From: Clostridia bacterium
GTDB taxonomy: Bacteria; Bacillota; Clostridia; Christensenellales; CAG-138
Length of the DNA: 44,471 nt
Assembly: GCA_030533005.1 (NCBI GenBank)
Contig: JAUNJX010000014.1
Span: 1 to 44,471, forward strand
Direction of reading: 5' to 3'
Within the stretch, counting starts at the first letter, position 1. Each line of letters starts with the position of its first letter. Shown here one piece after another: positions 4,869-10,179 of the stretch. The notes below the pieces were generated by a model, which ran no database searches, was not told the origin of the DNA, and saw nothing but the letters and a program-made list of their open reading frames with translations. The position numbers and the translations under genes are program-made.

Positions 4869-5897
4869 TTATTTTTCAGGTATTTCGCCGGAAACCAAGA
4901 TACGGGAGCCCATATCCTCCTCCGTAGCACCCGTCTGATAGCTCTGGTCGGCGATATAGAGCTTGTTGCCGATCAGGAAGGCCTGCGAATAATGGTCATG
5001 ATTGGCGACGTCGCCGCCTACGGTGGCGACAAGGCTGTAATCCGAGAGCTTATAGATATTGACCACGGAGTTTTCCGCCTGATAGGTGGAAACGATCAGG
5101 TAATCGCCGGAAATGGAGATGCCGTAAGCCTCCTCGCAGTCGATGACCTTCTCAAACTTGCTGCCGTCGTTGCTGAATTTGGCAACGGCGTCCGCTTTCG
5201 CGCCTTGCGCAAGCTTCATCGTGAGATAAAGACTACCGTCGGGGCCGACCGCGATGTAGTTTGCGTCGGCTTCCGCAACGCCTGTCTTAAGGGGCAGGTT
5301 CACGATGCCGTCCACGCCGAAAGCGGGGTTGATCGCGGGGGACGCGGGGTCGGTTACGTCATAGCAATAGATGCGGTTGGCGCCATAGTTGGTGATGAAA
5401 TAGGCGTAGTATTTGTCGCCGTCCTTGTAGACCGCAACGCCGTTTGCGCCGCAGTCCATAAGGCCGAGATCCACGATGGTCTCGGAGATCATTTCGCCGG
5501 TGCTGTCATCGATGACGAAAAGGGAAATGAAGGACGCCTTATTGTAGGTGACGACGGCGTAGACATAGCCGCGGTCGTCCGCGGCGAGACCCTTGGCGTA
5601 TTCCGGCCAATCCCCTACGCTGCCGTCATGGAATATCCACTGTTCTTCGCCGGAGGCGACGTCGATCTTGCGGACGCCGTTGGCGGTAAGGAGGATGTGA
5701 CCCGTGTAGAGGCTCTTTCCGTCCAGTGAGGCCGCCATGCCGCGAAGGGACTTGACGGGCGCGTCGAACACCTTATAATCTGTGAAGGTGAGGCCGTCAA
5801 AGTTCAGCGCCTTGGCGCTTTCGGCCTTCTGCCCGCAGCCCGTGAGGCAAAGCAGCAGCGCCAGAGACAACAACAGTGCTGGAATTGTTTTCTTCAT
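4869..5897 (-). CDS. Beta-propeller-like lipoprotein
   Basis: 342 aa with a classic lipoprotein signal (MKKTIPALLLSLALLLCLTGC, lipobox LTGC, Cys at residue 21). The rest consists of repeated blade-like units such as GMAASLDGKSLYTGHILLT, GLAADDRGYVYAVV and IAVGPDGSLYLTMK, typical of NHL/WD-like or PQQ-like propellers that scaffold or bind ligands outside the membrane. It starts 9 bp after the solute-binding protein gene and is the third gene of the riboswitch-controlled operon. A receptor or accessory role with the kinase and the binding protein is likely. No enzymatic residues can be assigned. Confidence 0.8.
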   Translation of the reverse strand: MKKTIPALLLSLALLLCLTGCGQKAESAKALNFDGLTFTDYKVFDAPVKSLRGMAASLDGKSLYTGHILLTANGVRKIDVASGEEQWIFHDGSVGDWPEYAKGLAADDRGYVYAVVTYNKASFISLFVIDDSTGEMISETIVDLGLMDCGANGVAVYKDGDKYYAYFITNYGANRIYCYDVTDPASPAINPAFGVDGIVNLPLKTGVAEADANYIAVGPDGSLYLTMKLAQGAKADAVAKFSNDGSKFEKVIDCEEAYGISISGDYLIVSTYQAENSVVNIYKLSDYSLVATVGGDVANHDHYSQAFLIGNKLYIADQSYQTGATEEDMGSRILVSGEIPEK

Positions 5898-5906
5898 GAT
5901 TTTCTC

Positions 5907-7772
5907 CTATTGTATGTATTTGGGTTCAGGCAGATCAAAGGGGGAGATCGAAGCCTGTGAAGCGCAGTAGGACGCGAGCGTCTGCATCAAGCTTTGTCCG
6001 TAGGGTTCCGCGCGGACGCAGCCGCTCTCCGGGATGCTGATGTTGCTTGGCACGCACACGCGGTATTCGCGCGATAGATCAAGGCGTTCGCCATCGGCCA
6101 AATACGCGCCGGTGGTGAGATAGAGATCCTTTTCCTTGTTAAAGGTAAGCTCCGGCGTCATGCCAAGGCAGATGTTGTTCGTTTTATTGATGTCCACGAG
6201 GGAGAGAAGCTGCGCGCCGGTCATGGTATACACTTGCACGTCTAAAAAGTGAAATAACGTCGATTCGAGTATGGGGACGGTCACGTCGCCTTCATAGAGT
6301 TTGGTGCTTGCAACCTGCGTATCATGGAAATGCCCGTAATAGTCAGGGCGCGTCGAAGGGGGCGCAACGGCGACGTCGCTGCCCGTCTGCGTACGCATGG
6401 CTTGCATAATCAGGTTGAGAACCTGCTGGAGCGAGAAGGTCTCCGTCGCCTGCGTGAGCACCTCCTTCATGCGGCTGTCCTCTAAAAGCTGTAGCGCCCG
6501 CGCGTCATTGAGGGAGGAAAGCAGCTCGTTTTCGGCTTCCTCCGTCGCGTCGCCGGACAAAAAAGCGAGCACCGCTGCGCCAAAGGAGCTGTCTACCGCA
6601 AACGGCGCGACCTCCTCCACAAGATTACCGCCCTCCAAGACGCGCTTGAATGCCGCAAGGGAGGGGGAGGATAGCTCGTCCATCAGGCCATAGCAGGGCG
6701 ATACCAGTCCCCGGCAGGATTCAAGCAGGCGAAGCTGTCCCTTTTCGCTGTAGATATAGTCCGCGATCCTGCTAAGCGCCGCCGCCATCTCGGGGTCATT
6801 CATGGATTTTGCGCTCATGCCAAGATAGAGCGTGTTGTGTTCGATGATGACGCCGTCGGGAAAGGCTTGGGAATACAGCGGCATCATGGCAAACTTGTCG
6901 TGCGTGCCGCTGTTATAGACCTGTGAGAGCGATTCGCCGTTGGCGATGCACATGGCGACCTGCCGCTCCTTCATCAAATGCGCGATCCCCTCCGTGAAGC
7001 TTTCCAGATCATCCGCGATATGGCCGACTGTGCCGAGCATCCGCAGGTAGGGGAGGGTGCCTGTGAAGGTTTCCCGCTCCGCCTTGGGATTGGCTGTGGA
7101 AAAGGCTTTTTGCCATTTGTAGCCGCTGAGCGTTGCGCCGTCGTTGATCAGATAGGCGGTGGAGAAAAGTCCCGTCCCGAGATCCGCCATGGTGCGCACC
7201 GAAATGGGCGGCATGCCCGCATCGTATATGGTGGTGAGCAGCTTGGTGAATTCCGCGTAGTTTTGCGGAACCTCCCAGCCGTTCTCCTCAAACATGGTCT
7301 GGTTGTAGATGATACCCTTGAGCCCCACGAAGAAGGGCAGATAGTAGAGCTTGCCGTCGATGGCGATATTGTTGAGGTAGGAGGTTTGGAAGCGCGAGGT
7401 GTACCCTTCGCCCGACACCTCCGCGAATGCGTTGGTAAGATTGGGAAGATCGGCGCTCAACGCGTCCGCGATGATGATATCCGGCACATCCTCATGGATG
7501 GCCATCTGCGAGAGGATGACTCCCGCTTTTTGCGAGCCTTCCGTGCCATCGACATGACCCCGGCGCACCATGGATTGAAAATCAAATTCATATTCGGGGA
7601 ATACGTCCCGCAGCTCGATGACGTAATTGAAAATAGAGGAGCTGTCATCAAATTCGATCCTTATGCGCAGCTTTTTGTTATCCTGCGCGACGGGGGCGCA
7701 GCATGTAACGCAAAAGAGGAAGGCCAAGATAAGCAGCATGGACACGGCGCGCAAGAGCTTGTTTTTCATCAT
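5907..7772 (-). CDS. Solute-binding lipoprotein with 5'-nucleotidase-like C-terminal domain
   Basis: 621 aa. Residues 1-27 are a signal sequence ending in a Cys-rich lipobox (VTCCAP). About 35-420 is a family 1 extracellular solute-binding fold (LYYLPFFVGLKGIIYNQTMF, then NGWEVPQNYAEFTKLL), the type that binds sugars. About 440-600 resembles the C-terminal domain of 5'-nucleotidases: LYEGDVTVPI, then VYTMTGAQLLSLVD and LDLSREYRVCVPSN line up with GDITYGDMN, LEVTGAQILAALE and LDESKTYTLATND of the true 5'-nucleotidase at 31888-33594. The metallophosphatase domain is absent, so it should bind rather than cleave. The start overlaps the kinase stop by 4 nt (ATGA), implying translational coupling. 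It is probably the extracellular sensor partner of the kinase. Confidence 0.82.
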   Translation of the reverse strand: MMKNKLLRAVSMLLILAFLFCVTCCAPVAQDNKKLRIRIEFDDSSSIFNYVIELRDVFPEYEFDFQSMVRRGHVDGTEGSQKAGVILSQMAIHEDVPDIIIADALSADLPNLTNAFAEVSGEGYTSRFQTSYLNNIAIDGKLYYLPFFVGLKGIIYNQTMFEENGWEVPQNYAEFTKLLTTIYDAGMPPISVRTMADLGTGLFSTAYLINDGATLSGYKWQKAFSTANPKAERETFTGTLPYLRMLGTVGHIADDLESFTEGIAHLMKERQVAMCIANGESLSQVYNSGTHDKFAMMPLYSQAFPDGVIIEHNTLYLGMSAKSMNDPEMAAALSRIADYIYSEKGQLRLLESCRGLVSPCYGLMDELSSPSLAAFKRVLEGGNLVEEVAPFAVDSSFGAAVLAFLSGDATEEAENELLSSLNDARALQLLEDSRMKEVLTQATETFSLQQVLNLIMQAMRTQTGSDVAVAPPSTRPDYYGHFHDTQVASTKLYEGDVTVPILESTLFHFLDVQVYTMTGAQLLSLVDINKTNNICLGMTPELTFNKEKDLYLTTGAYLADGERLDLSREYRVCVPSNISIPESGCVRAEPYGQSLMQTLASYCASQASISPFDLPEPKYIQ

Positions 7773-9910
7773 TTGTCACCGCCTCCCAAGTATTTTAGCA
7801 GCGTCGCCTTGAATTCGTCCATCTCGATCGGCTTTTTCAGGTGCGCGTTCATGCCGTGCTGCAAGGACTTTCGCATATCGTCGTCAAAGGCGTTGGCGCT
7901 CATGGCGAGTATGGGGATGGTCTTTGCGTCGGGCCGGTCAAGCGCGCGCACGGCGTCCGCAAACTCATAGCCGTTCATCTCCGGCATCTGGATATCCGTG
8001 ACGATGGCGTCGTAGTAGCCGGGAGCGGTTTCGGTGTATTTCATAAGCGCCGCCATGCCGTTTGTCGCGGTTTCCACAAGCGGGCCGAAACGGGCGATGA
8101 TCTTTGCCGCGATGAGCAGGTTGATGTCGTTATCCTCTACGAGCAGCACACGCTTGTTCACAAACGCGCTTTCATCGGGCGGCGTGGCGGATTGAACGGT
8201 TACGGACGCCGGGGCTTCGGCGCGTGCAAGCTCGAGCACCACCTCAAAGGTGGAGCCTTCGCCCTTCTTGCTTTTTGCGCTGATCGTGCCGCCCATCATA
8301 TCCACGAAGGATTTGACGATGGATAAGCCCAGGCCGCTGCCGCCGCCGACGCCCGACGCGTCCTGCGTGAAGGGGGTGAACAGTTTTTCCATGAACGCGT
8401 CGTTCATCCCGATGCCGGTATCGGCAACGACGAGGCGTATCCTGTCCCTGCTTTCGAGGCGCTCCAACAGCGCGAAGCTTACATCGATGCTGCCGCCGCT
8501 GTCCGTGAACTTGATGGCGTTGTTGATCAGGTTCATCAAGATCTGCGACAGGCGCTGCTTATCGCCGACATAGTAGCGAGACATTGCGCTGTCCGTGTGG
8601 ATATCGAGGCGCACATCCTTCTCCGTGGCTTGCTTGCGGGAAACCGCCGTGATGGTGTTGATGATCTCGTGCCCGTCAAAGACGTCGCAGCGCAGCTCCA
8701 CCTTGCCGCTTTCGATCTTGCTCATGTCCAGAATATCGTTGAGGATGCCCAAGAGATATTTGGCGGAAATATCGATCTGCTTGAGGTTGTCCATGACGGG
8801 CGCATCCTCCTCCACCTGCGTTGTGGCGATATAGTTCATGCCGATGATGGCGTTGAGCGGTGTGCGAATATCATGCGACATCTTGGCAAGAAAGTTGTTT
8901 TTGGTGGAGGCAACGCGGTTTTTGAGCTCCAGCTCATACATCTGCCGGTCGCGCTCCTTGGAAGCCTGCGCGTTGACGATGATGATGGACAGCACCAAAA
9001 ACGCAAGGCCAAGGACTACGCCGGCGATGGCAAGCAGCGTGTTTTGCAGCGCGGCTGTGGTTTCTTGAGAGGTGGAGGCGATGGGCGCTATCACGACGGC
9101 CATTTCGTCTGAATCCGCAAGCGGCTGGTATTGCACCGCCCAATCCGTGCCGTCGAAGCTGGCGAACAGGCTGCCTCCGTTTTTTTGCCGGATGTCCCGT
9201 TCGATCTTCTCCGCCAAGGGGGCGTCGATCCCCGCCTTTTTTAAGCTGGTGATAAGGTTATAACCAATGAAGGGCACGTCGATCCTGGGGCCAAGCTGGA
9301 TGCCGCCGTTCAGATCCACGAGGTAGGTATATCCGTCGTCGCCAAAAAGCCCAAGATACAAATCATCATGGAATTGCACCACATCGTATATCTCGTATAG
9401 GGCGACGATGGTCACGCCATCCACGAGCCGGGGCGTGAGCGCTGAGGAAAAGACCCAGTAATCCACCCCGTCGGCGGATTTATCGAAATGATATTGTGCG
9501 CCTTCGCTTGCAAGCGTGGCGGTGAGTATGTCGAAATTGCGGATCTGCGCCGTTTTTCCGTCCAGCGTGTAGGTCGAACCGGCGTCGTCCGCAAGCAGCA
9601 CGGTGTAGTTTTCATTCTCTTTATAGGCAAATAGCTTGTGCGCCTCCGCGAAGGAGGCGACGCTGGATTGTTCAAAGGCGGACGCGCTGGAGCCGATGCG
9701 CGAGGAGAGCCATTCGCGCTTGGCGGTGATGGAACGCGTAAGCTGCTCCGTGAGCTCGTTGACATAGACCGCGCGCTCATCCCGCAGGCTTTCGTTCAGC
9801 GCCCTATAACATCTGAAAAACCCAAAGAGACAAGCCACGATCACGAGGCAAATGCCTACGCTTAACGATGCTTGCCATAACTCCTTTTTTGTGGGCTTTC
9901 GGTTCTTCAT
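7769..9910 (-). CDS. Hybrid sensor histidine kinase with receiver domain
   Basis: 713 aa. TM1 spans about 13-33 and TM2 about 290-312, with a roughly 250-residue extracytoplasmic Cache-like sensor between them. HisKA carries the phospho-acceptor His346 (MSHDIRTPLNAIIGM). HATPase_c follows with N (LMNLINNAIKFTDSGG), G1 (VVADTGIGM) and G2 (GGGSGLGLSIVK) boxes. A C-terminal receiver domain begins LLVEDNDINL and has Asp639 (IVTDIQMPEMNG). There is no HPt or DNA-binding output domain, and no partner response regulator gene in the operon. The ribosome site AGGTGA lies about 6 nt before the start. It is the first gene of the operon, directly controlled by the cyclic-di-GMP riboswitch. Confidence 0.95.
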   Translation of the reverse strand: MKNRKPTKKELWQASLSVGICLVIVACLFGFFRCYRALNESLRDERAVYVNELTEQLTRSITAKREWLSSRIGSSASAFEQSSVASFAEAHKLFAYKENENYTVLLADDAGSTYTLDGKTAQIRNFDILTATLASEGAQYHFDKSADGVDYWVFSSALTPRLVDGVTIVALYEIYDVVQFHDDLYLGLFGDDGYTYLVDLNGGIQLGPRIDVPFIGYNLITSLKKAGIDAPLAEKIERDIRQKNGGSLFASFDGTDWAVQYQPLADSDEMAVVIAPIASTSQETTAALQNTLLAIAGVVLGLAFLVLSIIIVNAQASKERDRQMYELELKNRVASTKNNFLAKMSHDIRTPLNAIIGMNYIATTQVEEDAPVMDNLKQIDISAKYLLGILNDILDMSKIESGKVELRCDVFDGHEIINTITAVSRKQATEKDVRLDIHTDSAMSRYYVGDKQRLSQILMNLINNAIKFTDSGGSIDVSFALLERLESRDRIRLVVADTGIGMNDAFMEKLFTPFTQDASGVGGGSGLGLSIVKSFVDMMGGTISAKSKKGEGSTFEVVLELARAEAPASVTVQSATPPDESAFVNKRVLLVEDNDINLLIAAKIIARFGPLVETATNGMAALMKYTETAPGYYDAIVTDIQMPEMNGYEFADAVRALDRPDAKTIPILAMSANAFDDDMRKSLQHGMNAHLKKPIEMDEFKATLLKYLGGGDK

Positions 9911-9967
9911 CTATATCACCTGTTCCGGCAAGGCCGGGTCATTGCATCCAAATGTCCATTGCGGCAT

Positions 9968-10001
9968 AAAAATGCGCAATGCCGCATCAGCAGCATTGCG
10001 C
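9968..10001 (-). terminator. Riboswitch-linked intrinsic terminator
   Basis: On the minus strand GCGCAATGC (10001-9993) pairs with GCATTGCGC (9982-9974), followed by ATTTTT. A competing hairpin uses TGCGGCAT (9960-9967) and ATGCCGCA (9979-9986), which overlaps the terminator arm. The two folds exclude each other, as expected for a transcriptional expression platform. Confidence 0.85.
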
Positions 10002-10007
10002 GTAACA

Positions 10008-10082
10008 TTGCAACCGGCTGTCATGCTTTATGTTTAGACCCTTGGCTTTGCGCGAACAGCCTTTCGGCTGCCTTGCCTTTAC
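10008..10082 (-). promoter_or_regulatory. Cyclic-di-GMP-I (GEMM) riboswitch
   Basis: Read on the minus strand the element has every GEMM-I landmark in order: AAAGGCAA, a hairpin capped by a GAAA loop (CAGCC-GAAA-GGCTG), CGCAAAGCC, GGGTCTAA, then ATGACAGCCGGTTGC closing P1 with GCAA/TTGC. Spacing and sequence agree with the known class that binds cyclic di-GMP. It lies about 100 bp upstream of the hybrid kinase gene, between the promoter at 10151-10179 and a terminator at 9968-10001. It should therefore control the kinase, binding-protein and propeller operon in response to cyclic di-GMP. Whether it turns the operon on or off cannot be told by eye. Confidence 0.93.
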
Positions 10083-10150
10083 ATCTTTCGCTTTTCAATG
10101 GGCATATGCCTCTCACGCAAACGCCACCCCGTCGCCCAAAGCGACATATT

Positions 10151-10179
10151 ATTATACCATGTCTGGAAGCATTCGCCAA
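10151..10179 (-). promoter_or_regulatory. Promoter of the riboswitch operon
   Basis: TTGGCG (10179-10174), 17-bp spacer, TATAAT (10156-10151) preceded by TGG (extended -10). The predicted start near 10144 gives a leader of about 235 nt that contains the whole riboswitch and terminator. Confidence 0.85.

Follow-up and report, generated by a model that had tools for sequence, protein, structure and literature searches.

A class-I c-di-GMP riboswitch predicted to attenuate transcription of a hybrid histidine kinase operon in a Clostridia bacterium

By sequence and structure, the leader of a three-gene operon on the minus strand of the DNA analysed here (44,471 nt, hereafter the window) contains a genuine class-I c-di-GMP riboswitch with a predicted ligand response. 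This element probably acts by transcription attenuation as an OFF switch, and it precedes the genes of a probable extracytoplasmic sensor module that comprises a hybrid histidine kinase, a solute-binding protein and a propeller-like lipoprotein. The riboswitch itself is of a known kind, but its targets are unusual and apparently specific to the lineage. Since the output of the switch is itself a sensor, c-di-GMP would determine which signals the cell is able to detect. The features on which the argument rests are, in the order of transcription:

10151..10179, minus strand: promoter TTGGCG-17 nt-TATAAT with a TG extended -10 element (consensus scan, 10 of 12 positions)
10006..10087, minus strand: c-di-GMP-I (GEMM-I) aptamer (RF01051, 50.4 bits)
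9984..10026, minus strand: candidate anti-terminator hairpin, in which J1/3 and the P3 3′ strand pair with the terminator 5′ arm and loop (-14.5 kcal/mol)
9968..10001, minus strand: intrinsic terminator with a 12-bp GC-rich stem, a UGAU loop and an AUUUUU tail (folding, z -6.4)
9915..9921, minus strand: Shine-Dalgarno sequence AGGUGAU, 4 nt 5′ of the kinase start codon
7769..9910, minus strand: hybrid histidine kinase, 713 aa (Pfam; PDB relatives of the core)
5907..7772, minus strand: extracellular solute-binding protein, 621 aa (Pfam)
4869..5897, minus strand: propeller-like lipoprotein, 342 aa, with an LTGC lipobox (weak sequence match and low-confidence model)

Leader and operon

A preliminary description of the region 4869-10179, which extends from the last stop codon to the first base of the -35 element, had proposed a near-consensus promoter followed by three tightly packed genes. 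Both are found: the promoter has a TG before the -10 element and matches the consensus at 10 of 12 positions, the genes for the kinase and the binding protein overlap by ATGA, and a gap of 9 nt separates the latter from the propeller gene. Transcription would start near 10145. The terminator begins 4 nt 3′ of the aptamer, between the aptamer and the kinase gene, and folds with -22.2 kcal/mol compared with -9.1 ± 2.1 kcal/mol for shuffled sequences, of which 0 of 200 were as good.

The kinase consists of a transmembrane segment, an extracytoplasmic region of ~240 aa, a second transmembrane segment, HisKA (residues 337-402), HATPase (449-562) and a REC domain (588-703); the Pfam matches to HisKA (E 9e-15), HATPase_c (7e-28) and the receiver (2e-19) all lie in one chain, which defines a hybrid kinase. 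The extracytoplasmic sensor region has no Pfam match, and no fold is claimed for it, its predicted structure reaching only a pLDDT of 47 and a pTM of 0.23. In the binding protein, SBP_bac_8 (94-351) is followed by a weak Pfam match to a 5′-nucleotidase-C-like domain (441-576), and the relatives found in the family and the named species searched are distant, mostly with 21-44% identity over partial alignments. The lipoprotein lacks a Pfam match. It is tentatively described as propeller-like on account of a marginal sequence match to the YVTN propeller 1l0q (E 0.005) and a weak structure model, mostly beta and of low confidence (pLDDT 52), for which most of the top Foldseek matches are propellers, YncE and 1l0q among them.

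Taken together, the three proteins probably form an extracytoplasmic sensor in which the kinase receives a signal from the binding protein and the surface propeller. The partnership of binding protein and kinase is suggested by gene order, and two further loci of this genome (L231:2615-7125 and L232:766-5216) carry such a pair in identical order, again overlapping by ATGA; no riboswitch was found in the stretches examined there. Three-component systems likewise have a gene for an extracellular binding protein that overlaps the kinase gene, the likeness in the window being one of gene order alone. A gene for a selenocysteine tRNA (RF01852, 70.6 bits) also lies near the operon, at 2074-2166 on the minus strand of the window.

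Aptamer and predicted ligand

The identification of the leader as a GEMM-I aptamer, made in the preliminary description together with a proposal to search Rfam, is upheld by that search. The c-di-GMP-I model (RF01051) matches end to end at 10087-10006 on the minus strand with 50.4 bits (E 4.8e-7 over the window), above its gathering score of 35 bits. The Rfam search revealed no other riboswitch in the 44-kb window, and a search for c-di-GMP-II elements gave no match here and likewise none in control genomes. P2 contains CCGAAAGG and has a GNRA loop (GAAA), the tetraloop of a putative tetraloop-receptor contact. A position map and an alignment of 126 aptamers place G, A and C at the pocket positions that correspond to G20, A47 and C92 of Vc2, consistent with binding of c-di-GMP. 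The genome encodes ~30 GGDEF and 16 EAL matches, so that c-di-GMP is presumably made and broken down in this bacterium.

The cGAMP-type (GEMM-Ib) riboswitches, such as the 3′,3′-cGAMP riboswitches of Geobacter, have the same fold and belong to the same Rfam family, and A occupies the specificity position in 21 of the 126 aptamers of the order. In the Geobacter riboswitch, A14, A41 and C75 are placed at the junction (PMC6274999); because A14 lies immediately 5′ and A41 immediately 3′ of P2, the junction layout suggests that Gs A14, A41 and C75 correspond to Vc2 G20, A47 and C92. An A at the G20 position, as in Geobacter, marks GEMM-Ib, whereas the window aptamer has G there, as do six of six aptamers linked to kinases (see below). 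The predicted ligand is therefore c-di-GMP; cGAMP was rejected as ligand on the basis of this G, and it is highly improbable that the element is of the cGAMP type. The A-bearing aptamers of the order (MAFFT alignment; e.g. L018, L141, L175 and L179) may be cGAMP-binding or promiscuous variants.

Terminator, candidate anti-terminator and direction of switching

The candidate anti-terminator (10026-9984) shares strands with both the aptamer and the terminator and excludes both. The transcript was folded at successive 3′ ends with the aptamer helices enforced or not. In this series the anti-terminator dominates the calculated ensemble only for RNA 3′ ends 9984-9982, with a mean pair probability of 0.72-0.85 when the aptamer is unenforced and of 0 when it is enforced. 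Once the terminator 3′ arm has been transcribed, the terminator wins at equilibrium in either case, and switching must therefore be kinetic; the calculations are consistent with kinetic anti-termination. A further point against the attenuation model is that the unliganded fold including the 5′ leader is favoured over the enforced aptamer by ~9 kcal/mol, in a calculation that leaves tertiary contacts and ligand energy aside.

The preliminary description had posited mutually exclusive terminator and anti-terminator hairpins. The terminator stands on its folding energy, and an overlapping anti-terminator hairpin does exist, but its pairing at this locus is at chance level: it is no better than in dinucleotide shuffles (z 0.15; p 0.34 in a second test), nor does pooling the six kinase loci separate the pairing from shuffles (p 0.24). 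Over 51 related loci with a detectable terminator, aptamer and terminator show a weak excess of complementarity (mean z -0.42, Fisher p 0.006), although aptamers pair no better with their own terminator than with a swapped one (p 0.22). An anti-terminator at the window locus is plausible on these models. Two other pairings were considered and dropped. Pairing of the 5′ leader with the aptamer's CGCAAAGCC is no better as a competitor than that of shuffled leaders (p 0.26) and is not claimed as part of the switch, and a downstream hairpin, GCGGCAU/AUGCCGC (9985-9961), cannot prevent termination because one of its strands is transcribed only after the U-tract.

A terminator placed directly 3′ of the aptamer, together with a competing hairpin built from the aptamer 3′ strand, is the geometry of an OFF switch, and this direction, with the kinase module made at low c-di-GMP, is the most likely one. 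At high c-di-GMP, the nascent leader would fold as the aptamer and keep the 3′ strand of P3 from the terminator 5′ arm, allowing the strong terminator to form and shutting the operon. At low c-di-GMP, the 3′ strand of P3 would pair with the terminator 5′ arm until RNA polymerase clears the U-tract, and read-through would lead to synthesis of the hybrid kinase, the binding protein and the propeller lipoprotein. The level of c-di-GMP would in this way set the amount of sensor module present. In C. difficile, nearly all functional class-I switches are OFF switches that act by premature termination (PMC3649979, PMC6200980), and the class-I element Cdi-1-1 shows ON behaviour at the transcript level (PMC6200980).

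The opposite direction, in which the ligand destabilises the terminator and high c-di-GMP turns the kinase module on, appears unlikely. In its favour, one class-I element of C. difficile, located before CD630_19900, is induced (PMC6200980), highly similar cyclic-dinucleotide aptamers can be ON or OFF switches (PMC9262584), and the folding series removes the terminator in neither state. Nevertheless, the terminator of the riboswitch lies directly 3′ of the aptamer and shares no base with the aptamer helices, and the only competing hairpin found uses the aptamer 3′ strand, which argues against an ON switch. The same leader could also be a relic whose aptamer folds and perhaps binds, with a constitutive terminator and an operon outside c-di-GMP control. 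Its 50.4 bits are low beside the 60-80 bits of most relatives in the family, the chance-level anti-terminator would fit such a relic, and the other copy in the genome (39.4 bits) lacks part of the conserved P3 motif. We regard this as quite unlikely, as the binding-pocket residues are retained, no element is missing from the series of promoter, aptamer, terminator and ribosome-binding site, and the layout is kept at three comparable loci of the sister genus. An OFF switch that attenuates transcription thus remains the preferred reading.

Kinase-linked class-I aptamers in related genomes

A survey covered the genomes of the family (103) and of the order (396), and the DNA downstream of 126 class-I aptamers was read. 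A histidine-kinase core follows six of these aptamers, which is a lower bound because at many loci the reading extended no further than 1.5-2.5 kb. The six are the complete sets of the window's genome (two) and of a sister-genus genome (G002, three) plus the only aptamer of a genome from another family (G134), and terminator-like hairpins with U-runs lie 31-46 nt 3′ of the aptamer in every case. First genes at the other loci (112 scanned) include prepilin peptidases, Listeria-Bacteroides-repeat and other surface proteins, Tad/Flp pilus genes and EAL proteins. The window's genome contains 26 HisKA matches and G002 29, in ~2.2 Mb each, which puts kinases near 1.2-1.3% of genes if ~1 gene per kb is assumed; the presence of kinases at five of five aptamers in the two genera is therefore far from chance, with the reservation that paralogy makes the events non-independent.

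The survey bears out the view in the preliminary description that a hybrid kinase is a noteworthy first target, and the class-II system cmrRST provides a precedent. Control of a histidine-kinase operon by a c-di-GMP riboswitch is not without parallel (PMC12548384, PMC6200980): cmrRST of C. difficile is a two-component operon under a c-di-GMP riboswitch that acts positively, and there the riboswitch determines how much of a histidine-kinase system is made (PMC12548384), as is predicted for the window. CD630_32670 is counted among class-II targets (PMC6200980). The cmrRST switch differs in being class II and ON and in serving a separate kinase and two response regulators, whereas the window combines a class-I element with a hybrid kinase. 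Cdi-1-3 of the C. difficile flgB operon is similar to the window element in aptamer family, binding residues, promoter-aptamer-terminator-gene layout and predicted OFF direction (PMC3649979, PMC6200980), but the genes that follow in the window encode a hybrid kinase together with its neighbouring binding protein and propeller-like lipoprotein instead of flagella, adhesins or turnover enzymes. Another regulator, norR, has a class-I element in Oleidesulfovibrio (PMC11124144). In the largely open-access literature searched, no report of a class-I c-di-GMP riboswitch before a hybrid kinase was found.

The five kinases of the two genera differ in their inputs: the window's kinase is presumably coupled to a binding protein, that at the second locus of the same genome is a short protein with two transmembrane segments, and those of G002 carry PAS, GAF or SBP_bac_3 inputs. 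That all five aptamers sit at hybrid kinases with such different inputs looks like a regulon. In a tree of 61 kinase cores, the six riboswitch-linked kinases are scattered, with 6 label changes, at least 4 of them forced by well-supported branches. The tree rules out a single clade, and riboswitch and kinase have not simply co-descended from one gene; multiple gains and one gain with many losses would produce trees that look alike. Each of the two aptamers in the window's genome has the other as its closest relative (74% identity).

Judged from these sequences, the pattern suggests that c-di-GMP has been rewired onto two-component signalling specifically in this lineage. A more tentative proposal, possible but short of probable, is that class-I switches in this and the sister genus have moved from genes for pili, adhesins and EAL proteins onto a set of only distantly related hybrid kinases, that the messenger would simultaneously control, through RNA, which phosphorelay sensors are present in the cell, and that at one further locus the aptamer and terminator may lie in the kinase frame. 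At the second locus of the window's genome, the aptamer (G000:C41:9999-10080, equal to L060:5000-5081; 39.4 bits, altered CUAA motif) and a strong terminator-like hairpin are inside the open frame of the short hybrid kinase (L060:5007-6458). The first ATG of this frame falls in the ligand junction J1/2 of the aptamer, and its first 43 codons have an atypical codon-position profile (GC3 0.58 compared with 0.72 for the rest).

Several observations concern the surroundings of these elements. A serine-recombinase-like gene (L060:4175-4780) lies directly upstream of the second aptamer locus. The three G002 loci, at which a terminator-like hairpin and a hybrid kinase accompany the aptamer, span L058:2617-6056, L059:545-2883 and L059:13089-16292; the aptamers themselves occupy G002:C39:28616-28696, G002:C49:545-626 and G002:C49:13089-13167. 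An identical 14-mer, ATGCCCATTGAAAA, occurs just 5′ of the window aptamer (10110-10090) and at ~475-500 of L059, where it lies at the -35 region of the promoter for the aptamer at L059:545-626.
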